From a virus, in the IMG/VR virus record IMGVR_UViG_3300034068_000566, positions 1-64,000 of that record: a stretch of 64,000 bases of DNA; one strand, written 5' to 3'. A program made the position numbers and the translations under genes. The notes beneath the pieces were generated by a model. It ran no database searches. It was given only the letters and a program-made list of their open reading frames with translations, and was not told the origin of the DNA. Positions 1 through 16,516 of the stretch are shown one piece after another; position 1 is the first letter of the stretch, and every line of letters starts with the position of its first letter.

Positions 1-349
1 TAATTTCATTAACAGAAATATTTGGATTTGACGCCACCATCTCTGAAAATTGGAAGGTAGTTCCATAAACATCTCTACCATATTCTTGTGAATCTAAACC
101 ACAAGTGATACCCTGTGACCACTTACCATGAGTAATTCCTGGACCGCAGTAGTCGTTAGTAGGAATGGCAATAACTTGGAAGTCATCTCCGCCATACTTA
201 TCTTGAAGCCACTGTAGGACTTCCATCTGATTAGCGTTACCGCAACCAACTGTAGTGTTTACTAATAGACCAACCTTGCCTTTAAATTGATCTAAAAAAT
301 TGGGGGCTTCTTCAGCCGATAGCAGCGGGATATCATAAATAGGTTTCAT
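1..349 (-). CDS. Glutathione peroxidase-like protein (C-terminus outside window)
   Basis: The first 116 residues are visible; the gene runs off the left edge. The N-terminal half has the thioredoxin-fold layout of glutathione peroxidases: a hydrophobic strand (GKVGLLVNTTVGCG) ending in the expected peroxidatic Cys, a helix (QMEVLQWLQDKYG), then a strand-loop (FQVIAIPTNDYCGPG) matching the family VLGFPCNQFGGQEPG segment. Such enzymes reduce peroxides in the cytoplasm. The hexamer TATAAT lies at 356-361, exactly 6 nt before the ATG, so the mRNA is probably leaderless. It is the last visible gene of a minus-strand run with a JmjC-like oxygenase and a methyltransferase. Substrate and reductant cannot be told. 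Confidence 0.72.
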   Translation of the reverse strand, partial: MKPIYDIPLLSAEEAPNFLDQFKGKVGLLVNTTVGCGNANQMEVLQWLQDKYGGDDFQVIAIPTNDYCGPGITHGKWSQGITCGLDSQEYGRDVYGTTFQFSEMVASNPNISVNEI

Positions 350-2542: not shown

Positions 2543-2609
2543 ACTTTAAGTATAGCGGAGATAGGATGGTTTGTCAATATAGGTTCCGTGCAAAAAGTTA
2601 TCCACAGGT

Positions 2610-2798
2610 TTAGACATAATCTGGATGATCTAATGGAGTAGGTGCTGTGATAAGACATTTACATTCCATGCACTGAGCATCATCTAACAAGTACCCAGAA
2701 ATCTCATAGGTCTCATGATCAAATTGGACTGTTACCCTTAATAATGTAGATCCACAACAAGGACAAACAGGTGTTGGGATACCTCTGAGATTTACCAT
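2610..2798 (-). CDS. Zinc-ribbon small protein, 62 aa
   Basis: Contains VCPCCGSTLLR (Cys 12, 14, 15) and DAQCMECKC (Cys 43, 46, 48), a four-Cys zinc ribbon with extra cysteines. TATTAT lies exactly 6 nt before the ATG (2805-2810): leaderless. It directly borders the candidate origin. Function unknown; a nucleic-acid-binding role is possible. Confidence 0.6.
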   Translation of the reverse strand: MVNLRGIPTPVCPCCGSTLLRVTVQFDHETYEISGYLLDDAQCMECKCLITAPTPLDHPDYV

Positions 2799-2910
2799 AT
2801 ATCTATAATATCAGAGAGTTATCCACATGTCAATAGGGTGGTTTGGTATAGTTATCCACAGGTTTATCCACAGAAATATGTTACTGATTATATTATTAGA
2901 CAAGGTTTAA

Positions 2911-5904: not shown

Positions 5905-6139
5905 GTGGGGTCCTTTCAAGGTTAGTACGGTCTATACTTAAATTATACGTCAAGCAGTAGGCATTTGTCAAGGCCTCCATATATCCCTGCAAAAATCTGT
6001 CATCGTTATCTTCCATAGCTTCTTGACAGTCCAGCATTTCTACCTTAAGCCAGCCATGCATTAAATCAATTAGCGGTATAGAGACATCCTCTAAGGCTTT
6101 CGTTAAATGGTCGGGGATAAAAGGATACTTATCACTCAT
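5897..6139 (-). CDS. Hypothetical protein, 80 aa
   Basis: Helical, acidic protein (MSDKYPFIPDHLTKALEDVS..) with no recognised motif. A TTGACA-N18-TATAAT pair inside its 3' half could serve the next gene. It overlaps neighbours on both ends by 8 nt. Confidence 0.55.
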   Translation of the reverse strand: MSDKYPFIPDHLTKALEDVSIPLIDLMHGWLKVEMLDCQEAMEDNDDRFLQGYMEALTNAYCLTYNLSIDRTNLERTPHE

Positions 6140-6308
6140 TTATAATCCCCAATAGGTGATCACAGGTATCAATTGCTCCCATGTAAAATGAATCTGATTC
6201 AAAGTACTCATCATCGGGAATCTCAATACCCTCTTGTGCGTCTGCCATATCTTGTTCTAAAGAAATCCTGTGAATATTTATATACTCTCTTAATGTATTT
6301 AGGTCCAT
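6132..6308 (-). CDS. Hypothetical acidic protein, 58 aa
   Basis: MDLNTLREYINIHRISLEQD... helical, acidic; the pattern of an N-terminal helix, then EIPDDEYFESDSFYMGAID.. and a short C-terminal helix resembles the 80-aa protein downstream. TATAAT is exactly 6 nt before the ATG (6315-6320), and a perfect Crp-like palindrome is centred about 53 bp upstream. Confidence 0.6.
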   Translation of the reverse strand: MDLNTLREYINIHRISLEQDMADAQEGIEIPDDEYFESDSFYMGAIDTCDHLLGIINE

Positions 6309-6311
6309 ATA

Positions 6312-6554
6312 TTAATTATAGGGGTTTGAGTTGATTTTTACAAGCGGTGTGGGTGTGATACTGGTCACATCACTATGGGATGAGGCAAAGATTGTGCCTG
6401 GAAGTTTATGTGTACTTAATTTAACAATGGCCTGGTGAGGGCACGGACAAATCGGGGTAGCAATATATTCATCTTTCCAATAAGTAGTAAACTCCATAAG
6501 AGTATCACACTCAGTACAAAGAAACTCATGCTTAGTCCAGTGGTTTGAAAACAT
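6312..6554 (-). CDS. Zinc-ribbon-like protein, 80 aa
   Basis: HEFLCTECDTLMEF and ATPICPCPHQ supply CxxC and CxCxH zinc ligands in a short ribbon; the C-terminal third is low-complexity. Its start overlaps the TAA of the 41-aa gene. The 3' end contains a Crp-like palindrome (6354-6369). Confidence 0.55.
   Translation of the reverse strand: MFSNHWTKHEFLCTECDTLMEFTTYWKDEYIATPICPCPHQAIVKLSTHKLPGTIFASSHSDVTSITPTPLVKINSNPYN
6354..6369. promoter_or_regulatory. Crp-like palindrome TGTGA-N6-TCACA (perfect)
   Basis: TGTGA-TACTGG-TCACA inside the end of the 80-aa gene, about 53 bp upstream of the predicted leaderless start of the 58-aa gene. Confidence 0.5.
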
Positions 6555-6679
6555 TAGTCATCCTCATCTTCATCTAAGAAATCATTATAGGAACCAAAGG
6601 TAGGCGTAGCCCAGTCAGGAGCATCAATACCCCAATTATCGGGGGAGTAAACAACATCTCTTGTACCGTCAGGATTCAT
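6554..6679 (-). CDS. 41-aa hypothetical protein
   Basis: MNPDGTRDVVYSPDNWGIDA... with an acidic DEDEDD end; no motif recognised. It is stop-start coupled (TAATG) with both neighbours. Confidence 0.5.
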   Translation of the reverse strand: MNPDGTRDVVYSPDNWGIDAPDWATPTFGSYNDFLDEDEDD

Positions 6680-6837
6680 TAGTCAAAGTATCCTTCTGCC
6701 CATAGGCCTTGTAAGAATTCGTGAGCGGTAACTAAATAATTATGAATAGCAGGATTCTCATCAGCATTAATTAACAGATCAGCAGAGCCAACCCCATAAA
6801 TCATATTATCTAAATCTTCTTTAGTATAGCCCATCAT
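6679..6837 (-). CDS. 52-aa hypothetical protein
   Basis: MMGYTKEDLDNMIYGVGSAD..; helical with HEFLQGLWAEGYFD at the end. A tandem ATG-ATG overlaps the TGA of the gene upstream, so translation is coupled. Unknown function. Confidence 0.55.
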   Translation of the reverse strand: MMGYTKEDLDNMIYGVGSADLLINADENPAIHNYLVTAHEFLQGLWAEGYFD

Positions 6838-7058
6838 AGGTAAAAGTCATCTCCTTCTTTATATCCATAGTATTCGTTATATGATTGTTTTAGTGTATCA
6901 GGAGCGTATGACATAAATTGCCATTCAGCATACTCACTACCCTCATCTAAATTTCTATCATTCCATTGCTCAAAGAGTTCTTGCTCAATATCTACCTGAA
7001 TTGCTCCAAGGATGTGTTCGCCTACTGTATCTGTAAATGGTTCTATTGTTTGGGTCAT
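6834..7058 (-). CDS. Hypothetical protein, 74 aa
   Basis: Acidic helical protein (MTQTIEPFTDTVGEHILGAI..). Promoter TTGACA (7088-7093), 17-nt spacer and GATAAT (7065-7070) ends exactly 6 nt before the ATG, so this is a textbook leaderless gene and heads the 6132-7058 operon. Confidence 0.6.
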   Translation of the reverse strand: MTQTIEPFTDTVGEHILGAIQVDIEQELFEQWNDRNLDEGSEYAEWQFMSYAPDTLKQSYNEYYGYKEGDDFYL

Positions 7059-7112
7059 GTATTAATTATCGCACAAACCCTGCAAAATGTCAACTCCTTA
7101 CGTAATCCAATT

Positions 7113-7140
7113 CCTGGAAAAATATCATTGCTTACGTAAT
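7113..7140 (+). repeat. Bipartite motif CCTGG-N17-CGTAAT
   Basis: Fourth copy of the 3251-3625 motif, with the same 22-bp spacing. A second TTACGTAAT lies at 7098-7106. The intergenic 7059-7177 holds nothing else apart from the leaderless promoter and a TTCGAAAA word found in most gaps of this arm. Confidence 0.5.
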
Positions 7141-7177
7141 CATTGATTTTAAAAAATGTCAAATTCGAAAATCTTGC

Positions 7178-7250
7178 GATCTGTATCGGACTTGAACCGA
7201 CGACCTCTACCGTGACAGGGTAGCGCTCTAACCAACTGAGCTAACAGACC
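7178..7250 (-). tRNA. tRNA-Asp (anticodon GTC)
   Basis: Complete cloverleaf on the minus strand: acceptor GGTCTGT/ACAGATC (one G-U), D arm GCTC-AGTTGGTTA-GAGC, anticodon arm CTACC-CTGTCAC-GGTAG, T arm GTCGG-TTCAAGT-CCGAT. The 3' CCA is not encoded. Asp is abundant in the acidic microproteins of this arm. Confidence 0.93.
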
Positions 7251-7256
7251 TAATGG

Positions 7257-7279
7257 TGAGCAGTTTGAAATCTTGCTCA
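7257..7279. repeat. Hairpin repeat TGAGCA-N11-TGCTCA (copy 1)
   Basis: Six-bp stem with loop GTTTGAAATCT, followed on the plus strand by GGATTTTTTT. Lies between the DUF932 gene and the tRNA. Only the plus-strand reading has a T-run. Confidence 0.7.
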
Positions 7280-7290
7280 GGATTTTTTTG

Positions 7291-8307
7291 TTAGGCTAAC
7301 GCCATAACATTTTGAACAACTTTTAACAAGCGATTCTTTTCTGCGTTAATAGCAGGATCAAATCCACTTGCGCTTGCGAGAATAGATTCGTTAGAACCAC
7401 CACGAGCAGAACGATACCAGTCAAGGCGTTCGGTTAGCGCATTGAACGCACCCCAAGCAGAACCAGCAATCATTCCGTTAAACTCACCTGTGTAAATATC
7501 ATTGACCACGTCAATTTTATTTTCCCACTTTTTAAGTGAACCCTTAGAATCTTTTTCAGGCTTAGGGTAAGCAGCAAGAATGATGTTATTGAAATCAACA
7601 GCATTGACTTCTTTTTCAATCATAGCCTTAGCCATAATGTCAAATTCGTCCATATACTTATTAGCCATGCCAAGAGTTTCACGAGCAATTTGTACCTTGC
7701 CGTTAGCAGTTTGAGTATGGCGAATCTTGAAAGATTGCTTGATACCATTCTTTTTCTTGATTGAACCAAGAGCAAGATTGAGAGTGTTAGCGCATACAAC
7801 ACGAACAGGTGTGATACTTGCTTGAATAGCGATTGAGCCGTCATGTGATGTGTTGATGAGCAAATAAGTTTTAACCTTATCGGCAACACCAGTAGGGTCA
7901 AGAATTGTTTCACGTTCTAGTGCTAACGCACCGAATACAACACGACCACCCTTAATTGAGCCAGCAGTTTCCCAACGACCACCGCCGTCTAGGATATTGT
8001 CACCGAATGAGAATAGATCCTCATTCTGTAAAACATGGTAGCGTTCACCAACTACACCAAGAATATCTGTCTGAGTGTTATCGGTGGGATTAGTACGCAA
8101 GACATATTGGTACGCCTTGTCGCTTGTTAGATGTGTAGGGGTTTCTAAATCCTCTAAGCGAACATTCCACCCGTCAAGATTTGCTAATGAAAGCATTTCT
8201 GATGTGGTTTTTTCCTCTGAGAATACAGTACCCAATCCATGCCAAGCAGGTTCACGGAATGAAGCAAAACTTGCTACCCCATTTTGTGATTCTAGTTCAT
8301 GTGCCAT
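7291..8307 (-). CDS. DUF932 family phage/plasmid-like protein
   Basis: 338 aa, the usual length. N-terminal PAWHGLGTVF is the hallmark of the DUF932 (TIGR03299) family found in phages and plasmids; later features are GVVGERYHVLQNEDLFSF, a VVFGALAL strand, and ITPVRVVCANTLNLAL. The family has no proven biochemical role; links to recombination or replication have been proposed. Ribosome-binding site GAAAGGA upstream. Controlled by a TGTCAG-type promoter with a Crp-like site (8341-8424). Flanked downstream by a TGAGCA hairpin and tRNA-Asp. Confidence 0.88.
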   Translation of the reverse strand: MAHELESQNGVASFASFREPAWHGLGTVFSEEKTTSEMLSLANLDGWNVRLEDLETPTHLTSDKAYQYVLRTNPTDNTQTDILGVVGERYHVLQNEDLFSFGDNILDGGGRWETAGSIKGGRVVFGALALERETILDPTGVADKVKTYLLINTSHDGSIAIQASITPVRVVCANTLNLALGSIKKKNGIKQSFKIRHTQTANGKVQIARETLGMANKYMDEFDIMAKAMIEKEVNAVDFNNIILAAYPKPEKDSKGSLKKWENKIDVVNDIYTGEFNGMIAGSAWGAFNALTERLDWYRSARGGSNESILASASGFDPAINAEKNRLLKVVQNVMALA

Positions 8308-8340
8308 GAGTTTATTTCCTTTCGTTTGATTGTTAATTTA

Positions 8341-8424
8341 AGTATAACATTACGGACTGACAAAAGCAAATCGGGATAGTTAAACATGGACAATCTGGAC
8401 ATTTTTTCCGTGATCTTAATCACA
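8341..8424 (-). promoter_or_regulatory. TGTCAG-type promoter plus Crp-like site
   Basis: TGTCAG (8357-8362), N10, TATACT (8341-8346), with TGT just before the -10. CGTGA-TCTTAA-TCACA at 8409-8424 (one mismatch) is centred about 82 bp upstream of the predicted start. Drives the DUF932 gene. Confidence 0.6.
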
Positions 8425-8466
8425 TGATCGTAACTTGACTTTTAAGCTGGCCCGTTCGAAAATTTT

Positions 8467-8490
8467 GTGAAGCAGTTTTAGGACGTGCTC
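8467..8490. repeat. Hairpin repeat (copy 2, diverged)
   Basis: TGAAGCA ... TGCTCAGG, a one-base insertion relative to the other copies. Located 3' of the 134-aa gene, like every copy on this arm. Confidence 0.55.
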
Positions 8491-8515
8491 AGGTCCTTTG
8501 ATTAGTAGCCCCCTA

Positions 8516-8920
8516 CTAAACTTCTATTCGGTCAACACTTGATGAAAGATATTCAACACCTTCAGGATAATTAACAGAATCAAAATCAATATCGTGAATT
8601 AAATTTAGTGCTGACTCTTCATCACGAGCACGACATGTCACTGAATATTGAACTGTAACTTCTAATTCAAATTCTTTTGACAATTCAAATCCGCAAATGT
8701 TAGCGATCTGCTCCGCTTCTGCTTCATTGATTGAAGCCTCTTCCAAAGCATTCATAGTCCAGTCAAACATGTCATCACGCAAGCGCTGTAGGGTGCCTGC
8801 TGTTTCATAGTCACGCTGCGCTAAATTCTGGGAATGTAGAACTAAATCATTAATTCGTTCATCCTGCTTAGCAATAGTGGCCTTAAGAAAATCCTCTGTG
8901 GCATTTGTAGTTGTAATCAT
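8516..8920 (-). CDS. Hypothetical protein, 134 aa
   Basis: N-terminal helix (ATIAKQDERINDLVLHSQNL), a region with acidic helices, then a beta-rich C-terminus (LEVTVQYSVTCRARDEESAL) resembling ferredoxin-like alpha/beta domains. Start coupled to the stop of the 88-aa gene upstream (shared A). Function unknown. Confidence 0.65.
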   Translation of the reverse strand: MITTTNATEDFLKATIAKQDERINDLVLHSQNLAQRDYETAGTLQRLRDDMFDWTMNALEEASINEAEAEQIANICGFELSKEFELEVTVQYSVTCRARDEESALNLIHDIDFDSVNYPEGVEYLSSSVDRIEV

Positions 8921-9186
8921 TAGTTATCCAATCCTTCTGTTAGTTGATTCATTTCTTTCATTGTAGCAACCATGTCTGACATATCTGATTCTGATAAGCA
9001 AATAGACGAGACAAGTGTTGCTGTTAGTGCTGATAGTGAGGCACTGTATTTAAATAGCAACCGAGCAAACTCTTCATTTTCCATGTATTCACGGTTTTTA
9101 AACATAAATTGCGCTAAACCCATTAGTTCATGATCAAAGAGGGCTTCCTCTGTTGCTTCTTTAATTTGTAACATTGTGCTAATCAT
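8920..9186 (-). CDS. Hypothetical helical protein, 88 aa
   Basis: Predicted all-helical (MISTMLQIKEATEEALFDHE..) with a small-residue stretch SASLSALTATLVSSICL. Ribosome-binding site AAAGGTAG. First gene of a two-gene unit with the 134-aa protein. Not recognised. Confidence 0.6.
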   Translation of the reverse strand: MISTMLQIKEATEEALFDHELMGLAQFMFKNREYMENEEFARLLFKYSASLSALTATLVSSICLSESDMSDMVATMKEMNQLTEGLDN

Positions 9187-9212
9187 TGGGCTACCTTTCT
9201 AAAGTTTTGTGT

Positions 9213-9235
9213 TGAGCAGTTTATAGTCATGCTCA
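9213..9235. repeat. Hairpin repeat TGAGCA-N11-TGCTCA (copy 3)
   Basis: Same stem and GTTT-start loop as copy 1, followed by GGACATTTC. Between the 140-aa gene's stop and the next gene. Confidence 0.7.
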
Positions 9236-9254
9236 GGACATTTCCGTTAAGGAA

Positions 9255-9677
9255 TTATAGGTATTCTGATACAGCGTTGTAAGTGCTGGTATTGACAGTT
9301 TCCTCATCTGTCATTTTAAGAATACGAATTGCGTTTTCCAATTCCTTCTTTGACTCACGATAAGTGCTGGCATGAATAAACTCTACTTCACGCTCAGGCT
9401 CAGGTGGCATTTGTGCTTCTGATACTTTGAGGTCAAAGTCAATGTTTAGAGTGTCGTTATACGCACGATAGTTAGTGCGTAAGTTAAAGGCTTGCTTGAT
9501 GTTATCAAGTGCGAAAGTAAGAACTTCTGCTTTCCATGCTTCCATAGCCTTCTCAAACTTTAGTTCATTTTCTTTTTGTGTTGCGTAGTTAGTTTCTAAC
9601 TTAGCAAGTGATACCTCTAGTGCGTTGATGATTTTAGGTGTTGCGATTTTGACATTTATTGCTTTTGCTCTAGCCAT
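9255..9677 (-). CDS. Hypothetical coiled-coil protein, 140 aa
   Basis: Basic N-terminus (MARAKAINVKIATPKI) followed by long charged helices (LAKLETNYATQKENELKFEK; YRESKKELENAIRILKM). Similar proteins occur in actinobacteriophages without known role. Start preceded by GAAACGAGAAAACAC. Confidence 0.65.
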   Translation of the reverse strand: MARAKAINVKIATPKIINALEVSLAKLETNYATQKENELKFEKAMEAWKAEVLTFALDNIKQAFNLRTNYRAYNDTLNIDFDLKVSEAQMPPEPEREVEFIHASTYRESKKELENAIRILKMTDEETVNTSTYNAVSEYL

Positions 9678-9735
9678 GTGTTTTCTCGTTTCTGTTTGTG
9701 GGGTATTTCTATTATAGGGGGTGGGTGTGACATTT

Positions 9736-9758
9736 TGAGCAGTTTGTATTCATGCTCA
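9736..9758. repeat. Hairpin repeat TGAGCA-N11-TGCTCA (copy 4)
   Basis: Loop GTTTGTATTCA; followed by GGAATAAG. Directly downstream of the 54-aa gene. Confidence 0.7.
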
Positions 9759-9774
9759 GGAATAAGTAATTAGA

Positions 9775-9939
9775 TTACTTTGCTGTCCAAGTTGTGTAGC
9801 GGTGTGCGCCATTGACATCTAGTTTGACTCGGACATTACCATTTGATAGTGGAGTAATCTCTGCGATTGTTCCAGTTACCTTTGATTTTTGTGTGGTGTA
9901 GGTGTCGCCTACCTTGTAAGTTGCTGTATTAACTGACAT
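9775..9939 (-). CDS. Small beta-rich protein, 54 aa
   Basis: YKVGDTYTTQKSKVTGTIAE.. and NVRVKLDVNGAHRYTTW suggest a small SH3/KOW-like barrel. Such single-domain proteins are frequent in phage early arms. Preceded by a long regulatory gap with a TGTCAG promoter and two Crp-like sites. Confidence 0.6.
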   Translation of the reverse strand: MSVNTATYKVGDTYTTQKSKVTGTIAEITPLSNGNVRVKLDVNGAHRYTTWTAK

Positions 9940-9973
9940 TGTATTTCCTTTTCTGTTAGTTGGTTATAGATTA

Positions 9974-10145
9974 AGTATAACATTTCCTACTGACATTTAT
10001 CAAATTATTATCTGATAATCTCACTATGTGGAATTGTTATTTGGTTATACCTAAGTATGACAGAAAATGTCATAAATGTCAATTCTTAATCGTAAACCTG
10101 GGTGTGATAAATGTCACCTTAATCTGCTATGTGATAAATCTCACA
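9974..10145 (-). promoter_or_regulatory. TGTCAG-type promoter with two Crp-like sites
   Basis: TGTCAG (9990-9995), N10, TATACT (9974-9979). Palindromes at 10103-10118 (TGTGA-TAAATG-TCACC, one mismatch) and 10130-10145 (TGTGA-TAAATC-TCACA, perfect). The 250-bp gap 9940-10190 also has a CCTGG box and TCGAAAA; no gene is seen in it. Confidence 0.6.
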
Positions 10146-10190
10146 CGTGTCGAAAATTTCTGCGGGGAAGCACAGAAATTAACTTATTAC

Positions 10191-10433
10191 TTATTCATCA
10201 CTATCAACATACACATAGAGAGAGATCATCTCATCATGCTTGAAAGTGATAACATCTTTCTCACCAAACTCATCAGTGAACTCAACATGATAGTCATCGC
10301 CGTTATTGCTATCGCTAATACCTGTTACTTCAACAACCTCATCTGAGATACCGATTAGATCATTTAGCATTAGCTGGTTTGGTTGTAAGCGATCAGCAAA
10401 GATTAATTCCATAGTTTTTATTGTAGCAGACAT
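10191..10433 (-). CDS. Small beta-barrel-like protein, 80 aa
   Basis: ELIFADRLQPNQLMLNDLIG.. then DDYHVEFTDEFGEKDVITFKHDEMI: alternating strands as in the small barrels common in actinophages. Start set at 10433; an ATG three codons upstream is also in frame. Acidic. Function unknown. Confidence 0.6.
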   Translation of the reverse strand: MSATIKTMELIFADRLQPNQLMLNDLIGISDEVVEVTGISDSNNGDDYHVEFTDEFGEKDVITFKHDEMISLYVYVDSDE

Positions 10434-10434
10434 T

Positions 10435-10554
10435 TTATCCATCCATTTCTACGCAGTCCATAAAGCATTCCTCGCACATATACTCATCAATAGTGTAGTC
10501 ATCTTCATTAAGGCAATCGTGTTCAACGCAAGGGCATTTATTTATTGTCATCAT
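10435..10554 (-). CDS. Cys-rich microprotein, 39 aa
   Basis: CPCVEHDC and CEECFMDC give two pairs of zinc ligands. Tandem ATG-ATG overlapping the TGA upstream. Resembles the zinc-ribbon proteins at 5076 and 12791 in layout (DEYMC..C). Confidence 0.55.
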   Translation of the reverse strand: MMTINKCPCVEHDCLNEDDYTIDEYMCEECFMDCVEMDG

Positions 10555-10745
10555 GCGAACATCTCATCTAATTCTGAGTCTGACATTTCTACCCACTCGT
10601 TACTATTTATTAGAAATTCGGGCTCGCCAATAATAGACTCGCAATCAGAAAAATCGGGGAATTGGTAATTGGTCATTACTTCCTCGATATCAGTCGTTTC
10701 AAGATAAAACTCATGATACATGCTTACCTTATAAGTCTTAGACAT
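10551..10745 (-). CDS. Hypothetical acidic protein, 64 aa
   Basis: KTYKVSMYHEFYLETTDIEEV begins with a beta strand and an acidic helix, the same strand-plus-helix plan as the proteins at 11038 and 11185. Ends with MSDSELDEMFA. Stop-start coupled to both neighbours. Unknown role. Confidence 0.58.
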   Translation of the reverse strand: MSKTYKVSMYHEFYLETTDIEEVMTNYQFPDFSDCESIIGEPEFLINSNEWVEMSDSELDEMFA

Positions 10746-11038
10746 TATTCGTTATCCTCATCTACTGGGTCAATAAACCATGATAGGTTATGTCCTTCAA
10801 TAATAGCATAGGCTGGTGACTTTGCTTGCCCTCGCCAAGTAACCTGAAAGTTACCAATCATAGGCATATCAATAAGGCGATCATAGTCCTCATCATAGGC
10901 GGCATCAATAGCGGCAATACAAGTAGGTATCATTTCAACGGGTACTGGTGGATAATGATTACCCTGTAAGTGATAACGCAATTGCGTTTCAAGGTCTAAG
11001 GTTGTGTCTGCTAATCCAATTGCTGTTACTGATCCCAT
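10745..11038 (-). CDS. Hypothetical protein, 97 aa
   Basis: No known motif. Middle part PPVPVEMIPTCIAAIDAAYD, C-terminal beta-rich FQVTWRGQAKSPAYAIIEGH.. with acidic tail. Ribosome-binding site GGAGAAAATATA overlaps the end of the 47-aa gene upstream. Confidence 0.6.
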   Translation of the reverse strand: MGSVTAIGLADTTLDLETQLRYHLQGNHYPPVPVEMIPTCIAAIDAAYDEDYDRLIDMPMIGNFQVTWRGQAKSPAYAIIEGHNLSWFIDPVDEDNE

Positions 11039-11181
11039 TATATTTTCTCCTCAATGTCTGCGACATAAACATCACTTCTGCGAATTCCGCCATATTCTAA
11101 ATTAGAATCAAACATGCTGACGGCATCTTCTTCATTGTCTGCTTCAACGTTAATAAAACAAGTAAACTCATATAGTGCCAT
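11038..11181 (-). CDS. 47-aa protein, tandem paralogue A
   Basis: MALYEFTCFINVEADNEEDA.. NLEYGGIRRSDVYVADI. It is clearly related to the 55-aa protein immediately upstream (MARFEF..FIDVEAENHDEA..LKYGIDKDNVYVADI), the product of a tandem gene duplication. Plan: strand, acidic helix, strand. Function unknown. Confidence 0.6.
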   Translation of the reverse strand: MALYEFTCFINVEADNEEDAVSMFDSNLEYGGIRRSDVYVADIEEKI

Positions 11182-11184
11182 TAT

Positions 11185-11352
11185 TTATACCTCTACGCCT
11201 TCGTTGTTGTAAATAGTTAATTCTTTTATGTCTGCGACATAAACATTATCTTTATCTATTCCATATTTTAATTGAAATTGAAAAACATCAATAGCCTCAT
11301 CATGGTTTTCTGCTTCTACATCTATGAAAGTGTTAAACTCAAATCTTGCCAT
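11185..11352 (-). CDS. 55-aa protein, tandem paralogue B
   Basis: Paralogue of the adjacent 47-aa protein, aligned over its whole length without gaps except an 8-residue C-terminal extension (KELTIYNNEGVEV). Stop-start overlap with the 68-aa gene upstream. Confidence 0.6.
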   Translation of the reverse strand: MARFEFNTFIDVEAENHDEAIDVFQFQLKYGIDKDNVYVADIKELTIYNNEGVEV

Positions 11353-11558
11353 TACTTAGTTACCACCTTTCTACCTTCACGATAGAATACTTTTGTGTAG
11401 CAAACCAATTCGGGAGTGTAAATATTGACAGTTGAGTATTCGTTAGCCGTTCCCCAATCGGTAAACTGAAAAAATGCTTGCCACGCTTTCATTTCATCAG
11501 GGTAATCTTTCTGCCAGTGTGGGGCATTGCTATCATAGGCGACAGTTATTTTATACAT
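11352..11558 (-). CDS. Hypothetical protein, 68 aa
   Basis: MYKITVAYDSNAPHWQKDYP..DEMKAWQAFFQFTDWG: strand then an A/W/F helix, then NEYSTVNIYTPE and a basic end. Start set at 11558 because AAGAAGG precedes this ATG; a longer in-frame version is unsupported. Confidence 0.6.
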   Translation of the reverse strand: MYKITVAYDSNAPHWQKDYPDEMKAWQAFFQFTDWGTANEYSTVNIYTPELVCYTKVFYREGRKVVTK

Positions 11559-11764
11559 TAGTTTCCTTCTTTCGTTGTTGATATTTCTGATACTACCATG
11601 TCGTACTGACAATCGCAGGGTTCTGTGTAATCAAATGAGCAGAAATAGCAACCCATCATTTCATCGCATACACGGCACTGATAGCGGAATTGTACTTCAT
11701 CGCAGCAAATCTGAGATATATCCCAAATTAAATAGTGATCTGTCTTATCTATAACTGTAGCCAT
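11558..11764 (-). CDS. Cys-rich zinc-binding protein, 68 aa
   Basis: Eight cysteines: ICCDEV, YQCRVCDEMMGCYFCSFDYTEPCDCQ. The stretch GCYFCxFDYxxPCxC is shared with the plus-strand 55-aa protein at 16295, showing they are paralogues on opposite strands. Start at 11764 chosen for the GAAAGAAGG upstream. Function unknown. Confidence 0.62.
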   Translation of the reverse strand: MATVIDKTDHYLIWDISQICCDEVQFRYQCRVCDEMMGCYFCSFDYTEPCDCQYDMVVSEISTTKEGN

Positions 11765-11799
11765 AGGGGGCAACCTTCTTTCTTTTTCTTTATACTGTA

Positions 11800-11884
11800 A
11801 GCCTACCATTTATCACTGACATTTTCAATTTTTAATAGGCTTATCTTAAATAGTAAGACGGCGTGTCGTGTGATTAATCTCACA
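11800..11884 (-). promoter_or_regulatory. TGTCAG-type promoter plus perfect Crp-like site
   Basis: TGTCAG (11816-11821), N10, TAGGCT (11800-11805). TGTGA-TTAATC-TCACA at 11869-11884 is perfect and centred about 83 bp upstream of the predicted start. A CCTGGG box and a DnaA-like TTATCCACA (11896-11904) follow. Serves the 10191-11764 gene run. Confidence 0.6.
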
Positions 11885-11943
11885 ACCTGGGTAAGTTATC
11901 CACAGTTCTTAAATCACCCTGTGGACAACCTTTCGAAAAAAAT

Positions 11944-11971
11944 AAAGGACAGCCTGCAGTAGCTGCCCTTT
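11944..11971. terminator. Bidirectional rho-independent terminator
   Basis: AAAGGACAGC ... GCTGCCCTTT forms a long stem with one mismatch, with T-rich flanks on both strands. On the minus strand it ends the unit containing the 21-aa peptide, before the next promoter. Confidence 0.65.
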
Positions 11972-11984
11972 AAATTATTTTTTA

Positions 11985-12050
11985 TTATCCAGATCCAGCA
12001 ATCATTAAGATAGCAATAAAAATACCAGTTGCAATTATTAAGATTTCCAT
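11985..12050 (-). CDS. 21-aa membrane micropeptide
   Basis: A single hydrophobic helix, MEILIIATGIFIAILMIAGS.., supported by AAAGGAG 9-10 nt upstream, which is why I call it despite its size. A terminator follows at once. Function unknown. Confidence 0.45.
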   Translation of the reverse strand: MEILIIATGIFIAILMIAGSG

Positions 12051-12066
12051 TTTTATTATTCTCCTT

Positions 12067-12801
12067 TTATTTTTTAGTGGCAGAAAAAATTATGTCACTC
12101 TTTGAGTATACACACAATGAGCATGAAACGCAAGCCGAGCCAGCAGTGCTAATCAATGGAATTTGCTTATTATTTTCAGGACATTTAGCAGCAGGGCGCC
12201 CGATCATTTCTTTAACATCTGCTTGACCTATAGCAAAATTCTTAGCAAGGTATGCCATGCGTACGCCACTATTAATTTTTAGATCAACAGCAGTTTTAAC
12301 ATTCTCACTATCAGCAGAAAAATACAGTGAGAGGTTTTCAATATCTTTTAGAATAAGGGCAGCAGACTTAACACGAGTGTAAACCCAGAATTGTACATCC
12401 GCATTAAGTTTAATTACATCGGACCACGCAATGGCATAAGTATCATTAAAGAAGTCACCGTCCCAATGGATACGGAATAACATGGGCGCATTCTTTTTTA
12501 CACAATCAGCCTTAAAATCAGCAATCATCTCACTGATCAAATTAAGCATGGTTAAATAGTCTGCGTCTTTTAGCAGGGCCCAATTATGAAGTAGGTTAAC
12601 CTTTACGGAAGGGAAGACCTTTTCAAGTTTTCCTGCGTAGCATATGCTCTCACATACACTAGTGGCACCAGGGCACGAGAAAGCCTTTCCAGCAGGTAGG
12701 CCGAACGTGTTAGCAATTGCTGCTTGTTTTCCATTTTTTGTGACAAGGTTAGCCACCTTTCTATCGTTAGAACGTTTTAATTTTAGGGGATTAGTAGTCA
12801 A
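12067..12801 (-). CDS. GP88-like protein (actinophage gene product 88 family)
   Basis: 244 aa. FSCPGATSVCESICYAGK, then FRIHWDGDFFNDTYAIAWSD, QFWVYTR and a C-terminal Cys cluster (SACVSCSLCVYS) match the gene product 88 domain of mycobacteriophages. The Cys clusters at both ends suggest a metal or iron-sulfur site. The fold and activity are not established in what I know. The start is TTG at 12801, overlapping the 59-aa gene upstream by 11 nt. Confidence 0.75.
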   Translation of the reverse strand: MTTNPLKLKRSNDRKVANLVTKNGKQAAIANTFGLPAGKAFSCPGATSVCESICYAGKLEKVFPSVKVNLLHNWALLKDADYLTMLNLISEMIADFKADCVKKNAPMLFRIHWDGDFFNDTYAIAWSDVIKLNADVQFWVYTRVKSAALILKDIENLSLYFSADSENVKTAVDLKINSGVRMAYLAKNFAIGQADVKEMIGRPAAKCPENNKQIPLISTAGSACVSCSLCVYSKSDIIFSATKK

Positions 12802-12970
12802 GGCTAAGACTCATTTCTAATACACGATCTTCATGGGTAATAGAATCTGCTAATTCATTTAGCCAGCAATGATCACACATAGGCATATATTCATCAACAG
12901 CATTTTCATTACACTTAGGGCAGGTAGTAGAATAGAATTCATCAAAGAATTCATCGTTTTCAAATGTCAT
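12791..12970 (-). CDS. Zinc-ribbon protein, 59 aa
   Basis: TTCPKCNENAVDEYMPMCDHCW gives a CxxC...CxxC ribbon spaced by 12 residues. Ribosome-binding site AAGAAAGG. Probably in one operon with the GP88-like protein, whose TTG start lies inside its 3' end. Confidence 0.6.
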   Translation of the reverse strand: MTFENDEFFDEFYSTTCPKCNENAVDEYMPMCDHCWLNELADSITHEDRVLEMSLSLDY

Positions 12971-12986
12971 GGGGGCACGACCTTTC

Positions 12987-13136
12987 TTAGTTGTTGTTAT
13001 TTTTTAATTCTAGCATATCGGACTGACATTTATTCTTGCGAGAATAAACTTTCTTAGACTTAATAGGGGTCGCCGCATTTGACCTACGCAATTCCATAAG
13101 CCTGCGTAAATCCTCAGCGGTTTTCTTAGTTGACAT
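12987..13136 (-). CDS. Small basic protein, 49 aa
   Basis: MSTKKTAEDLRRLMELRRSN... IKSKKVYSRKNK is strongly basic, a likely nucleic-acid binder. It has an internal TGTCAG-type promoter (13007-13028) that would serve the 59-aa and GP88-like genes. The C-terminus ends in four Asn encoded by the promoter-proximal AAC repeats. Confidence 0.5.
   Translation of the reverse strand: MSTKKTAEDLRRLMELRRSNAATPIKSKKVYSRKNKCQSDMLELKNNNN
13007..13028 (-). promoter_or_regulatory. TGTCAG-type promoter
   Basis: TGTCAG (13023-13028), N10, TAGAAT (13007-13012), TGC before the -10. Drives 12791-12970 and the GP88-like gene. Confidence 0.6.
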
Positions 13137-13181
13137 ACAATAATCTTAGCATACTTAAAGTTAAAATACAAATTATAAAAT

Positions 13182-13197
13182 TGTGACAAATCTCACA
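13182..13197. promoter_or_regulatory. Crp-like palindrome TGTGA-N6-TCACA (perfect)
   Basis: TGTGA-CAAATC-TCACA, about 50 bp upstream of the 49-aa gene. Next to it, in order, are CCTGGG, CGTAAA, a DnaA-like TGTGGATAA (13230-13238) and TTCGAAAA: the composite module seen in several gaps. Confidence 0.55.
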
Positions 13198-13262
13198 AAA
13201 CCTGGGCCTGTGGACAAAGTACGTAAAGCTGTGGATAACTTTTCGTTTCGAAAAATTTTTAG

Positions 13263-13285
13263 TGAGCAGTTTAAAATCTTGCTCA
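13263..13285. repeat. Hairpin repeat TGAGCA-N11-TGCTCA (copy 5)
   Basis: Loop GTTTAAAATCT, almost identical to copy 1, followed on the plus strand by GGATTTTTATTTTT. Located just 3' of the 50-aa gene. Confidence 0.7.
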
Positions 13286-13297
13286 GGATTTTTATTT

Positions 13298-13450
13298 TTA
13301 TTTTTTAATTCGTTCACTTCGCAAAGCAACTTGCAATCTGCGAATTTCTTTTTCTAATTGGATGTTGCGTTGCCAAAAAGCAATCATCATTGTAAGTGAT
13401 CCAGCTAAAGCAATTACAATTGCGATTAGTGTTCCGTTATCTAAAATCAA
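13298..13450 (-). CDS. 50-aa TM plus basic-helix protein
   Basis: TTG start overlapping the TGA of the 66-aa gene (AATTGA). LIAIVIALAGSLTMMIAF forms a TM segment followed by a charged helix (QRNIQLEKEIRRLQVALRSE). The topology resembles small phage membrane-anchored coiled-coil proteins. Function unknown. Confidence 0.5.
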   Translation of the reverse strand: MILDNGTLIAIVIALAGSLTMMIAFWQRNIQLEKEIRRLQVALRSERIKK

Positions 13451-13647
13451 TTTGCCATCTCCAATTCTTTATAGCAAGCAATCGCAAATCTATTTGCGTC
13501 AAATCTTGGGTTATCAGTTTCAAACATTAGAGAAAATTCATCTACCAAATCAGCAAATAAAATTTCTCCTTGCTCATCAAAAACAGATGTAGCAAAATAA
13601 TTGCTAAGAATTTCAGCGGTTGCGACATAGTCTTTACGAGTCATCAT
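13447..13647 (-). CDS. MTRKDY-type conserved phage protein, 66 aa
   Basis: MMTRKDYVATAEILSNYF.. with MFETDNPRFDANRFAIAC. Small proteins with this MTRKDY...DNPRFD..RF signature are widespread in phages and metagenomes, always without known function. Tandem ATG-ATG at the start. Confidence 0.7.
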   Translation of the reverse strand: MMTRKDYVATAEILSNYFATSVFDEQGEILFADLVDEFSLMFETDNPRFDANRFAIACYKELEMAN

Positions 13648-13856
13648 TATTCGGCCACCTTTAGAATTGCGTAAGTGCCATTTGCGTTTATATTTTCAAG
13701 GACTGGCTTGATAGCAGGCGCAAGTAAATCTTTTAGCATTGATTCTAAAAGCATTATCTGACTTACTTCATCAAGTGCTAAAAATTGTTGAGCCACTGGA
13801 TGAGTTTCATCAAATTCGGTTACAAACTTTAGAGCGTGTTCTATTGATATTGTCAT
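13647..13856 (-). CDS. Hypothetical protein, 69 aa
   Basis: All-helical (MTISIEHALKFVTEFDETHP..), with a hydrophobic IMLLESMLKDLLAPAI helix. Stop overlaps the start of the 66-aa gene. A TGTCAG-type promoter lies upstream (13898-13919), inside the neighbouring gene. Confidence 0.6.
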   Translation of the reverse strand: MTISIEHALKFVTEFDETHPVAQQFLALDEVSQIMLLESMLKDLLAPAIKPVLENINANGTYAILKVAE

Positions 13857-13871
13857 TTTATTTCCTATTCG

Positions 13872-14012
13872 TTAGTTGGATTCGGGTGTATTAAATAATT
13901 GTATATCTTGGCACTGACAAGGCTCAACATGGTATTCCTCGCCTGTACCAAAAAAGATTAGGCCAGTTGAGTAGCAATCCTCGCAGGGTATTGTTAAAAC
14001 TGAGTTTATCAT
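13872..14012 (-). CDS. 46-aa protein with CxxC and CxC
   Basis: IPCEDCYSTGLIFFGTGEEY.. and EPCQCQD look like one DnaJ-type zinc repeat half (CxxC..G..F.G). Start coupled to the stop of the 69-aa gene upstream. Confidence 0.5.
   Translation of the reverse strand: MINSVLTIPCEDCYSTGLIFFGTGEEYHVEPCQCQDIQLFNTPESN
13898..13919 (-). promoter_or_regulatory. TGTCAG-type promoter
   Basis: TGTCAG (13914-13919), N10, TACAAT (13898-13903). Lies inside the 46-aa gene, upstream of the 13298-13856 run. Confidence 0.55.
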
Positions 14013-14221
14013 TAAGCACCTACCTTTATGGCAACAGTTGCCCAAAAGTTTTTGATTCCACGAGTTGAGCGAACCTCAATAGCGTATGCCTCAAACTCTG
14101 AGCCGTACCAAACATCAGGGCGGGGAGTTGCGTATTGGATAACGCCTTCATCATGGCGATTAGTTGAGCGATAAGTCTTGCCGATTAGCAAGTCCTCTAT
14201 TGTGTATGGTTTTGCTGACAT
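14012..14221 (-). CDS. Small beta-rich protein, 69 aa
   Basis: YTIEDLLIGKTYRSTNRHDE.. and VWYGSEFEAYAIEVRSTRG: alternating strands, a possible SH3-like barrel. Ribosome-binding site GAAAGGTGACA. Function unknown. Confidence 0.6.
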   Translation of the reverse strand: MSAKPYTIEDLLIGKTYRSTNRHDEGVIQYATPRPDVWYGSEFEAYAIEVRSTRGIKNFWATVAIKVGA

Positions 14222-14334
14222 TAGTTGTCACCTTTCTTTATTTCTTTAATTGTAGCGGATAGGACTGACAAAGCCTGAGCCTTGCTTGCGTTGCGTTGCG
14301 CCTGTATTAGCGCCTTATATTCCTCTAGTGTCAT
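14221..14334 (-). CDS. 37-aa helical peptide
   Basis: MTLEEYKALIQAQRNASKAQ.. is one amphipathic helix. A TGTCAG promoter (14249-14270) sits inside it. AACGAAAGGTCAAAA precedes the ATG, so it has a ribosome-binding site. Confidence 0.45.
   Translation of the reverse strand: MTLEEYKALIQAQRNASKAQALSVLSATIKEIKKGDN
14249..14270 (-). promoter_or_regulatory. TGTCAG-type promoter
   Basis: TGTCAG (14265-14270), N10, TACAAT (14249-14254). Internal to the 37-aa gene; serves the 69-aa gene. Confidence 0.55.
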
Positions 14335-14365
14335 TTTTGACCTTTCGTTAATTGCTTACTATGTA

Positions 14366-14451
14366 AGTTTAGCAGATTAGACTGACATTATCAAATTAGA
14401 AATGCTAACAATTCGGACATTTTGATATTTATTTTTGTGACTATTCTCACA
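14366..14451 (-). promoter_or_regulatory. TGTCAG-type promoter plus perfect Crp-like site
   Basis: TGTCAG (14382-14387), N10, TAAACT (14366-14371). TGTGA-CTATTC-TCACA at 14436-14451 is centred about 84 bp upstream of the predicted start. Drives the 14221-14334 gene. The gap 14335-14527 also has GGCGTGTCGG and TTCGAA; no gene seen. Confidence 0.6.
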
Positions 14452-14527
14452 CTGTAAATTTTTCTATAACTTTTGTATAACAATCTTAAACCTATCGGCG
14501 TGTCGGTTTGACTTTTCGAATTTTTTT

Positions 14528-14620
14528 TCACTCCTTAGAAAGTAAAAATAGAAAACGAAAAGCAAAAAATAAAGTTAAGAAAAATAAAGCTCTGCCGTCA
14601 GTGAAAAAAGTTAAGTCCAT
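14528..14620 (-). CDS. 30-aa Phe-rich membrane micropeptide
   Basis: MDLTFFTDGRALFFLTLFFA.. is nearly all Phe and Leu, one TM helix. GGAGAATAAAAA precedes the ATG and overlaps the end of the upstream gene. Function unknown. Confidence 0.45.
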   Translation of the reverse strand: MDLTFFTDGRALFFLTLFFAFRFLFLLSKE

Positions 14621-14623
14621 TTT

Positions 14624-14728
14624 TTATTCTCCAATTCCGTTAAGCATTTTTTCTAATTCTAAAAGTTGATCATTAGTTAAATGATCTAATTGTATTGCGT
14701 TAGCAAATCCGAATAAATCTATTTCCAT
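14624..14728 (-). CDS. 34-aa helical peptide
   Basis: MEIDLFGFANAIQLDHLTND.., acidic amphipathic helices. AGAGGTGTAAAA precedes the ATG. Not recognised. Confidence 0.45.
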   Translation of the reverse strand: MEIDLFGFANAIQLDHLTNDQLLELEKMLNGIGE

Positions 14729-14730
14729 TT

Positions 14731-14922
14731 TTACACCTCTTCATTTTCTCTAATGGCATCTTCAAAATCTAAAAGCGATTGGTGATAAGCGATTGGGTCG
14801 CACTCTCGCAAAATCTGTGAGGCAGAAAAACTTAGGTTGCCAATTTCAAAAGGCTTATACGATTCGTCTAGCATGTCATCAAACCAAGTTTTAATTTCAA
14901 AGGCTACATCAAAATCTAGCAT
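14731..14922 (-). CDS. Hypothetical acidic protein, 63 aa
   Basis: MLDFDVAFEIKTWFDDMLDE.. with SFSASQILRECDPIAYHQSL near the middle. Proteins with this ILRE(C)DP.AY pattern occur in many phages without a known role. Coupled to the 35-aa gene upstream. Confidence 0.6.
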   Translation of the reverse strand: MLDFDVAFEIKTWFDDMLDESYKPFEIGNLSFSASQILRECDPIAYHQSLLDFEDAIRENEEV

Positions 14923-15029
14923 TAGTTATTTTCCTTTTCTATTTTTTTTACATTTAGATAATCGGTTACATTTAAGTAAGTGACATAAGCAGCCCAAATA
15001 AATAAGGGAATAAGAATAAGGTTTATCAT
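14922..15029 (-). CDS. 35-aa single-TM microprotein
   Basis: MINLILIPLFIWAAYVTYL.. then a charged tail (KKIEKEN). One TM helix. Stop and start overlap both neighbours. Function unknown. Confidence 0.5.
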   Translation of the reverse strand: MINLILIPLFIWAAYVTYLNVTDYLNVKKIEKENN

Positions 15030-15206
15030 TTAGTTAGCCCCTCTAATAGTTCCGTTAATTGCTAATAAGTCACACTCTACTTTTAGAGATGTGTTTTTGT
15101 TAAGGCGTGAAGGCAGGGCAGAAATAAAATCAAGCACCTGTTGCTTAGAATAGAAAGGCATTTTTTTAGTGTTGCCGTTATATGAGGTTAGTGTAAGTGT
15201 TATCAT
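15030..15206 (-). CDS. 58-aa hypothetical protein, paralogue of 16971
   Basis: MITLTLTSYNGNTKKMPFYS.. LDFI..L...LNKNTSL..DLLAINGTIRG aligns along its length with the plus-strand 61-aa protein at 16971 (MINATLTTVGGSTKGMTFDS..). So this is a second gene duplicated onto both arms. Small beta-alpha-beta protein; function unknown. Confidence 0.6.
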   Translation of the reverse strand: MITLTLTSYNGNTKKMPFYSKQQVLDFISALPSRLNKNTSLKVECDLLAINGTIRGAN

Positions 15207-15361
15207 TATTTTTTCTCCATTACTTTAATTATGACATCTAAATCTTTTTCGGTAAGCAATACGCTTGCGCTACCCCATAGGGCAGCATAAGTGTGACCAG
15301 TATCGCCATATTTTTCTTTTGCTAAATCATAGGCTAATTGTCTTTTGTCATATGTATCCAT
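15206..15361 (-). CDS. 51-aa hypothetical protein
   Basis: MDTYDKRQLAYDLAKEKYGD..TYAALWGSASVLLTEKDLDVII: helical, similar in tone to small proteins that carry a YGxxx..ALWG..S..T.KDL pattern in other actinophages. Ends overlap both neighbours. Confidence 0.55.
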   Translation of the reverse strand: MDTYDKRQLAYDLAKEKYGDTGHTYAALWGSASVLLTEKDLDVIIKVMEKK

Positions 15362-15540
15362 TACTTACACCCCTCGCATGTGAACTTAGTGAACTTTTTA
15401 TCTTTAGCAAATACCTCTAAGTAATTATCATTACAGTTAGAGCATGCGATAAGTGCGGTAGAGGCTCTGCCGTATAGGTGAGGCTCTGATACGGATAATA
15501 GGGCGTTATCTATAACCTCTTGTGTTTTTAGTATAGTCAT
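15361..15540 (-). CDS. Zinc-ribbon protein, 59 aa
   Basis: ALIACSNCNDNYLEVF and FTCEGCK provide two CxxC pairs. The start at 15540 is preceded by GAAAGGTGG, the same ribosome-binding site as the 58-aa gene at 15966; the frame is open further upstream but not supported. Confidence 0.6.
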   Translation of the reverse strand: MTILKTQEVIDNALLSVSEPHLYGRASTALIACSNCNDNYLEVFAKDKKFTKFTCEGCK

Positions 15541-15572
15541 TTTTGACCACCTTTCGTTTTCGTTATATAGCA

Positions 15573-15594
15573 ATTTTAGCATTAGGGTCTGACA
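15573..15594 (-). promoter_or_regulatory. TGTCAG-type promoter
   Basis: TGTCAG (15589-15594), N10, TAAAAT (15573-15578), TGC before the -10. Drives the 13.9-15.5 kb run starting with the zinc-ribbon gene at 15540. Confidence 0.6.
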
Positions 15595-15601
15595 TTTTGC
15601 C

Positions 15602-15793
15602 TTATTTAGACAGCGTGTCGGAAATTTCTTTTTGTGATATAGCCCACAATTCTTTACACTTATCAGGGTTGTTCCACCATGGGAAACCCTCGTGATATTG
15701 GGCGGGGGCTAATACAACCTGACCGCAAGGGCATAAGTTCATCAACCCTTTAGGGTAATCGCTTACAGTAGCGAACTTAGTCCAAATACTCAT
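15602..15793 (-). CDS. Hypothetical protein, 63 aa
   Basis: MSIWTKFATVSDYPKGLMNL CPCG... then HEGFPWWNNPDKCKELWAIS. A CPCG and a later Cys suggest partial metal binding. Stop-start overlap with the 58-aa gene. Unknown function. Confidence 0.55.
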   Translation of the reverse strand: MSIWTKFATVSDYPKGLMNLCPCGQVVLAPAQYHEGFPWWNNPDKCKELWAISQKEISDTLSK

Positions 15794-15966
15794 TTAGTAG
15801 ACACATACCAATCTGTCCACATAGGGAATTGCTCAGGGTCACCATCATAGTAGTAACGCTCAATATTTTGCTCACAATCTTGGCAGAAAGTGAATTGCTC
15901 ATCTCCATAGTTAGAGATAGCGGAAAGCATAGGGTTATGCTCATGTGTTTTTGTTAATGTAGTCAT
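15790..15966 (-). CDS. Hypothetical protein with CxxC, 58 aa
   Basis: MTTLTKTHEHNPMLSAISNY.. FTFCQDCEQNIERYYYDGDP: one CxxC, His-rich N-terminus. The start at 15966 has GAAAGGTGG. It is the first gene of the leftward arm after the divergent promoter region. Confidence 0.58.
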   Translation of the reverse strand: MTTLTKTHEHNPMLSAISNYGDEQFTFCQDCEQNIERYYYDGDPEQFPMWTDWYVSTK

Positions 15967-16000
15967 TTTGACCACCTTTCTTTAATTTCTTTATACTGTA

Positions 16001-16087
16001 AGTTTAACACAGGGGTCTGACAAATTGAGGGGTACAAATAGGATAAAACGGACATTGTGAGGTAGGTCACATGTGTTTCATGTCACA
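16001..16087 (-). promoter_or_regulatory. Leftward TGTCAG-type promoter with two tandem Crp-like sites
   Basis: TGTCAG (16017-16022), N10, TAAACT (16001-16006). TGTGA-GGTAGG-TCACA (16056-16071, perfect) and TGTGT-TTCATG-TCACA (16072-16087, one mismatch) touch each other; the second is centred about 85 bp upstream of the start. Left half of the 328-bp divergent control region 15967-16294. Confidence 0.6.
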
Positions 16088-16187
16088 TGATTAGATCGTT
16101 ATCAAATTGTTATAATTATTAGGGCGTGTCGGCTTGACAAGGATATACACATCACCCTGTGGATAACTTTTTTTCGACATTTTTTTA

Positions 16188-16263
16188 TGTGGTGTATATC
16201 ACATATAAATATTACACAATTACGGCGTGTCGGGTTGTTTTTGTCAGTGCTACCTGCTATACT
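16188..16263 (+). promoter_or_regulatory. Rightward TGTCAG-type promoter with Crp-like site
   Basis: TGTCAG (16242-16247), N10, TATACT (16258-16263), TGC before the -10. TGTGG-TGTATA-TCACA at 16188-16203 has one mismatch. A DnaA-like TGTGGATAA (16158-16166) lies in the same gap. Drives the 16295-17156 operon. Confidence 0.6.
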
Positions 16264-16294
16264 TGCCATATAACAACAACGAAAGGACATAAAA

Positions 16295-16462
16295 ATGTCA
16301 CTTACCCTATACCCTGTGAATCAGTACTATTTAACTGATAACACTCAATTTATCCACTGTGGCGAGAGCCAATTCCGTCACTATTGCGACAAGCACTTTC
16401 AGGCTCAGGGGTGCTATTTCTGTGAGTTTGACTACGCTCAGCCTTGCGAGTGTGACGAGTAA
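16295..16462 (+). CDS. Cys-rich protein, 55 aa, paralogue of 11558
   Basis: QGCYFCEFDYAQPCECDE at the C-terminus matches MGCYFCSFDYTEPCDCQ in the minus-strand protein at 11558; CGESQFRHYCDKHF precedes it. Probably binds zinc. Ribosome-binding site CGAAAGGACAT. First gene of the short rightward operon. Confidence 0.62.
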   Translation: MSLTLYPVNQYYLTDNTQFIHCGESQFRHYCDKHFQAQGCYFCEFDYAQPCECDE

Positions 16463-16494
16463 CACATCAGACACACCCCCAAAAGGGGTCAAAA

Positions 16495-16516
16495 TGTCAG
16501 TTCCCCCTGCTATACT
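16495..16516 (+). promoter_or_regulatory. TGTCAG-type promoter
   Basis: TGTCAG (16495-16500), N10, TATACT (16511-16516), TGC before the -10. A CCCC-CAAAA-GGGG hairpin precedes it at about 16475-16489. Drives 16549-17156. Confidence 0.6.

Follow-up and report, generated by a model that had tools for sequence, protein, structure and literature searches.

The locus described here raises the question of which protein reads a palindrome, TGTGA-N6-TCACA, that recurs in the control regions of a large phage, and what its binding would do to phage transcription. The window, i.e. the whole stretch of DNA that was analysed, comprises 64,000 nucleotides of the 95,289-bp IMG/VR record IMGVR_UViG_3300034068_000566. 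Its genes include those for a portal, a capsid protease and a terminase, a minor tail protein of the tape-measure type, RecA, primase and helicase, a DNA polymerase III alpha-type polymerase, an exonuclease of the Cas4 type and a ribonucleotide reductase dependent on B12. At the left edge (approx. 145-337, minus strand) there is a weak glutathione-peroxidase-like match (PF00255, 26.7 bits, cut-off 27). The closest cultured-phage matches of the capsid protease and the DUF932 proteins come from Streptomyces phages of the Stanwilliamsviridae, and close relatives are present in hundreds of IMG/VR contigs.

In the window the palindrome occurs in six exact copies, against 0.10 expected in shuffles, and allowing one mismatch raises the number to 13, against 2.8 expected. 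A scan of the full record, suggested as a check in the earlier note, revealed N6 as the only enriched spacer, with 6 exact and 14 near sites, whereas all other spacers from N0 to N16 gave no exact and at most six near sites each. The exact copies are confined to 6.3–16.1 kb, where leftward and rightward short genes diverge, with none in the rest of the 95,289 bp. Chance or base composition as the origin of the palindromes was ruled out by the controls with other spacers and with permuted half-sites. The six perfect positions named before (6354, 10130, 11869, 13182, 14436 and 16056) all matched exactly on rescan, the one-mismatch positions 8409, 10103, 16072 and 16188 came out the same, and further one-mismatch sites were found at 1101, 15633 and 16451. 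The 'twelve' palindromes announced in the title of the earlier note fit the 12 of 13 window sites that lie within 6354-16466. This part of the genome (6.3–16.5 kb) can be regarded as the early control region of the phage, presumably transcribed early in infection.

By hand reading, small upstream ORFs reach with their last codons into three of the clustered sites, 6354, 15633 and 16451; the remaining nine are located between ORFs. The codon-usage gene caller is crude and misses many short early genes, and this statement was made without it; by its gene calls, the near site at 81831 is the only one well within a gene. The clustered sites and their promoters are as follows, partly by hand reading where indicated:

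6315..6343, minus strand: promoter TTGTAA-N17-TATAAT, predicted start at the A of the ATG at 6308 (partly hand reading)
6354..6369: exact Crp-like site TGTGATACTGGTCACA, centre at -53.5 from the predicted start of the leaderless minus-strand ORF 6132-6308
8341..8362, minus strand: promoter TGTCAG-N10-TATACT, driving the DUF932 gene (7291-8307)
8409..8424: Crp-like site with one mismatch, centre at -82.5 relative to the promoter of the DUF932 gene; orthologous upstream regions retain this position
10054..10082, minus strand: promoter TTGACA-N17-CATACT with extended -10 TG, partner of sites 10103 and 10130 (partly hand reading)
10103..10118: Crp-like site with one mismatch, centre at -63.5 of the TTGACA-N17-CATACT promoter (partly hand reading)
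10130..10145: exact Crp-like site, the upstream one of a tandem pair, centre at -90.5
11800..11821, minus strand: promoter TGTCAG-N10-TAGGCT
11869..11884: exact Crp-like site, centre at -83.5
12987..13136, minus strand: leaderless gene of 49 aa (MSTKKTAEDLRRLMELRRSNAAT...), highly conserved and linked to a Crp-like site in relatives
13143..13148, minus strand: extended -10 hexamer TAAGAT (TGCTAAGAT), predicted start at the A of the ATG at 13136
13182..13197: exact Crp-like site, centre at -53.5, leaderless promoter
14366..14387, minus strand: promoter TGTCAG-N10-TAAACT
14436..14451: exact Crp-like site, centre at -84.5
15573..15594, minus strand: promoter TGTCAG-N10-TAAAAT
15633..15648: Crp-like site with one mismatch, centre at -74.5, overlapping the 3' end of ORF 15602-15793
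16001..16022, minus strand: promoter TGTCAG-N10-TAAACT
16056..16071: exact Crp-like site, the inner one of two tandem sites 16 bp apart, centre at -69.5
16072..16087: Crp-like site with one mismatch, centre at -85.5
16188..16203: Crp-like site with one mismatch, centre at -74.5 of the first rightward gene
16242..16263, plus strand: promoter TGTCAG-N10-TATACT
16451..16466: Crp-like site with one mismatch, centre at -64.5, overlapping the stop codon of the upstream gene
16495..16516, plus strand: promoter TGTCAG-N10-TATACT

The promoter shared by the early genes reads TGTCAG-N10-TAnnnT; its -10 is extended by TG, and the predicted start is an A. At least 13 copies were found in the window (8341-16516), the relatives contain 839 at spacing 10, and the non-redundant ones number 213. 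Since 121 of these 213 promoters have no site within one mismatch, Crp is not required at all of them. In a second promoter class, a -35 and a -10 element are followed by the ATG at the predicted start, so that the transcript would be leaderless. Middle promoters of phage T4 that depend on MotA likewise combine an extended -10 with a phage-specific box replacing the -35, the MotA box being located at about -30. The likeness concerns the promoter and not the Crp site, and the TGTCAG core at -28 to -23 lies closer to the -10 than the MotA box. The TGTCAG element may be read by some further factor, following a MotA-like logic, or may be an operator. A phage sigma factor was considered and rejected, as no Sigma70_r4 domain was found in the record.

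Some further features of these promoters can be noted. At -28 to -23, TGTCAG is not a normal -35, and the fuller form of the promoter is TGTCAG[T/A][C/G][C/G] followed by TGnTAnnnT. The class is also present in the two contigs L167 and L168, the DUF932 proteins of which are 51-54% identical. CGTGTCG (reverse CGACACG) occurs in six copies in a single orientation close to Crp-like sites (10146, 11862, 14499, 15614, 16125 and 16226) and is found at -54 in relatives, and TGTCCG is a further recurrent motif, located at about -60 and -50 of the promoters. The 49-aa leaderless gene at 12987-13136 has a near-invariant core, EELRRLMELRRSNAAS, and many relatives have a Crp-like site in front of it, at about -53.

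The sites are not placed at random, most of them lying upstream of an extended -10 promoter. Starts were set seven bases past the -10 and are thus predicted from -10 elements, not mapped. A -10 lies downstream in range for 111 of 137 non-redundant sites, and the site centres cluster with a period of 10.3–10.5 bp, at about -53.5 (leaderless class), -64, -74.5 and -84.5; the valleys that separate these positions are nearly empty. The resultant at 10.5 bp is R=0.72, compared to a largest value of 0.335 among 5000 random sets; related sequences being only partly independent, R is to be read as descriptive and not as a formal probability. The same registers are, however, seen where the surrounding sequences are unrelated. 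Scanning IMG/VR for the pattern with no relatedness seed delivered at least 120 stretches with a site and a TGTCAG promoter, against 2 with an N7 spacer, and the gaps of 28, 38 and 48, with few at 18, 59 and 70, reproduced the comb; gaps of 33–34 stem from tandem pairs. A corresponding scan with TTGACA promoters gave at least 120 hits against 4 in the control, with a peak at -54. In a more distant phage contig (DUF932 protein 54% identical), the assignable sites are located at -63.5, -84.5 and -94.5.

The distance of 82-85 bp that the earlier note had given for four promoters holds for 8409 (-82.5), 11869 (-83.5), 14436 (-84.5) and 16072 (-85.5); however, the set of registers is broader and includes -53.5, -64 and -74.5. 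Two window sites do not follow the comb, 16056 (-69.5) and 10130 (-90.5), and both belong to tandem pairs. A 16-bp tandem pair of the 16056/16072 type recurs in relatives, and the arrangement in the window might serve both directions. On the plus strand, an extended -10 (TGTTATAAT, 16072-16123) would set site 16072 at -43.5, which is class II-like.

Almost no site overlaps a core promoter, the placement being -53 or further upstream. The sites lie on one face of the helix, at one-turn intervals and upstream of the -35 region, as is characteristic for class I activation. A comb on one face is the signature of an activator that touches RNA polymerase, which argues for a class I, Crp-like reading. 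In E. coli, the optima for class I activation are -61.5, -72 and -82.5, and -53.5 is no classical class I position. The phage sites do not coincide with the E. coli registers (-61.5, -72, -82.5 and -92.5): the period is equal, but the phase is 2-3 bp further out, so that the promoters would act in the manner of class I with a geometry other than that of E. coli. This shift may reflect the unusual core promoter. Class I Crp promoters of bacteria, i.e. the E. coli lac type and the actinobacterial Crp/GlxR regulons, share with the phage the palindrome, the site upstream of the core at one-turn intervals and an often weak or missing -35. The phage promoters differ in registers shifted away from the -10 by about 2-3 bp relative to E. 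coli, in the frequent -53.5 before leaderless genes, in TGTCAG at -28 to -23 and in being phage-borne.

The comparison with 98 de-duplicated related viral loci (1.6 Mb) revealed 479 exact sites, with at least one in 98 of 98 loci, whereas control spacers gave 0–7 exact sites and the commonest permuted half-site 19. All 14 near-complete relatives of 98–119 kb carry between 3 and 9 exact sites, mostly in one region per genome among the relatives with positions listed. No exact site was detected in five Streptomyces phage relatives of about 130 kb each. Compared with control spacers, single-mismatch variants avoid the inner GTG/CAC and hit mainly the outer T and the spacer-adjacent A, as would be expected for Crp/GlxR, and the inner GTG...CAC comprises the bases least tolerant of change in the orthologous sites upstream of DUF932 genes as well. 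Among 57 distinct DUF932-upstream regions, 43 keep a site with at most two mismatches before the TGTCAG promoter, and 35 a site with at most one. At the spacer centre A and T prevail, with 84% at each of the central positions, AA/TT being commoner than the TA of the GlxR consensus.

For GlxR, the consensus reads TGTGANNTANNTCACA (PMC4254451). A phage-borne Crp beyond the window, considered in the earlier note, was not found: a search for cNMP_binding and HTH_Crp_2 domains in the record and in the 14 relatives of 98-119 kb was empty for both. As the palindrome corresponds to the Crp/GlxR consensus and no phage Crp domain was found, Crp/GlxR of the host is the simplest and most likely binder. 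The Crp/GlxR class I reading proposed before is strongly supported by site specificity, conservation and the helical comb; its alternative, a Crp of the phage's own, is not supported. The host itself is probably an actinobacterium. This is indicated by whiB, taken here as an actinobacterial marker (PMC10202952, PMC6802176) and carried by all 14 near-complete relatives, and by the kinship with Streptomyces phages. No whiB was found in the record itself, perhaps because it is shorter than most relatives. Only two genome bins with phage-like contigs emerged from the one scan of genome contigs, one of an uncultured cyanobacterium and one of Methylophilaceae; these are probably co-binned phage, and the organisms were not taken as hosts.

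A phage-encoded activator of another fold could also recognise TGTGA-N6-TCACA, as no domain is recognised in most of the small early proteins and the sites are common to the whole clade. We regard this as rather unlikely. The motif agrees with the consensus known for actinobacterial Crp/GlxR (PMC4254451, PMC4117774), and no recognised regulator was found in the early region or elsewhere in the parts scanned, with 24-53.9 kb and 64-75 kb only partly covered. Such an activator would also come too late for promoters used at the start of infection, unless it is carried in the virion.

The best explanation, which we hold with good though not full confidence, is one in which the phage borrows the Crp of its host and brings none. 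The Crp/GlxR dimer of the actinobacterial host would sit at one of four helical registers upstream of a phage promoter and contact RNA polymerase, probably at the alpha C-terminal domain. Polymerase would thereby be recruited to promoters which mostly offer only an extended -10 and the phage-specific TGTCAG element, and the phage early genes would be switched on by class I activation. It is an inference that host Crp binds the sites, that it activates and does not repress, that it depends on cAMP and that the timing is early.

That host Crp binds the sites and yet represses, or merely shapes phage DNA, appears improbable to us. In its favour, cAMP-CRP represses three promoters of phage T1, those of pir, dam and recE (PMC6737242), and the abundant CRP of Mycobacterium tuberculosis occupies many sites without an effect on expression (PMC4117774). 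However, the phage sites lie at -53 and beyond, in helical register, and almost never overlap the core promoter, and in M. tuberculosis it is binding near the start that is associated with repression, upstream binding being associated with activation (PMC4117774). T1 resembles our phage in that host Crp is tied to phage gene control, but there it represses promoters in the lysogeny-lysis switch, whereas activator-type placement is observed here at many promoters of a large actinophage with no evidence of lysogeny.

Activation by host Crp would have a known counterpart in the CtrA sites of phages of Alphaproteobacteria, where use of a host master regulator has been described (Mascolo et al. 2022, PMC9437464). 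In both cases the sites are concentrated in promoter regions, and they are kept across the phage lineage here, so that the sequences would match the pattern of a host master regulator of the CtrA type. The differences are the regulator family (Crp, metabolic and not cell-cycle), the host phylum, the fixed helical phase and the fact that binding of the host regulator is predicted here from sequence. After CtrA, it would be the second host master regulator read by a lineage of phages. In the literature searched, we found no precedent for Crp/GlxR sites in actinophages, nor for Crp sites that are set in helical phase at early promoters throughout an actinophage clade.

Little is known so far about early-gene control in uncultured actinophages. 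The concrete prediction is that most early promoters are activated by host Crp, which would tie phage take-over to the second-messenger state of the cell. The helical-phase rule is precise enough to find such promoters by sequence alone and might aid host prediction. A more far-reaching and tentative reading, towards which we do not lean, is that early transcription of this actinophage clade is mostly wired to host Crp-cAMP, so that infection follows carbon status in a nutrient-gated 'lytic deferment'. If true, Crp site, TGTCAG and extended -10 would form a previously undescribed composite promoter. C. glutamicum has more cAMP when grown on glucose than when grown on acetate (PMC4254451), so that the sense of the signal is not predictable from E. 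coli.

A role of the sites in a replication origin or in packaging, instead of in promoters, is hardly credible: DnaA-box-like sequences do occur near 11896-11920, 13209-13230 and 16158, but the sites span 10 kb, each before a promoter in helical phase, and no Crp-like site is located where DnaA-like boxes are densest (2598-2864). Origin iterons were rejected as well, since the sites track promoters. Four copies of the DnaA-box-like TTATCCACA lie within 270 bp at window positions 2598-2872, a possible origin, and further such sequences are located beside Crp-like sites at 11896, 11920, 13209, 13230 and 16158. Finally, a 27-nt stem-loop (GAGCA...TGCTC) is present in five copies (7256, 8468, 9212, 9735 and 13262) near the ends of leftward genes; these are perhaps terminators or RNA processing sites.
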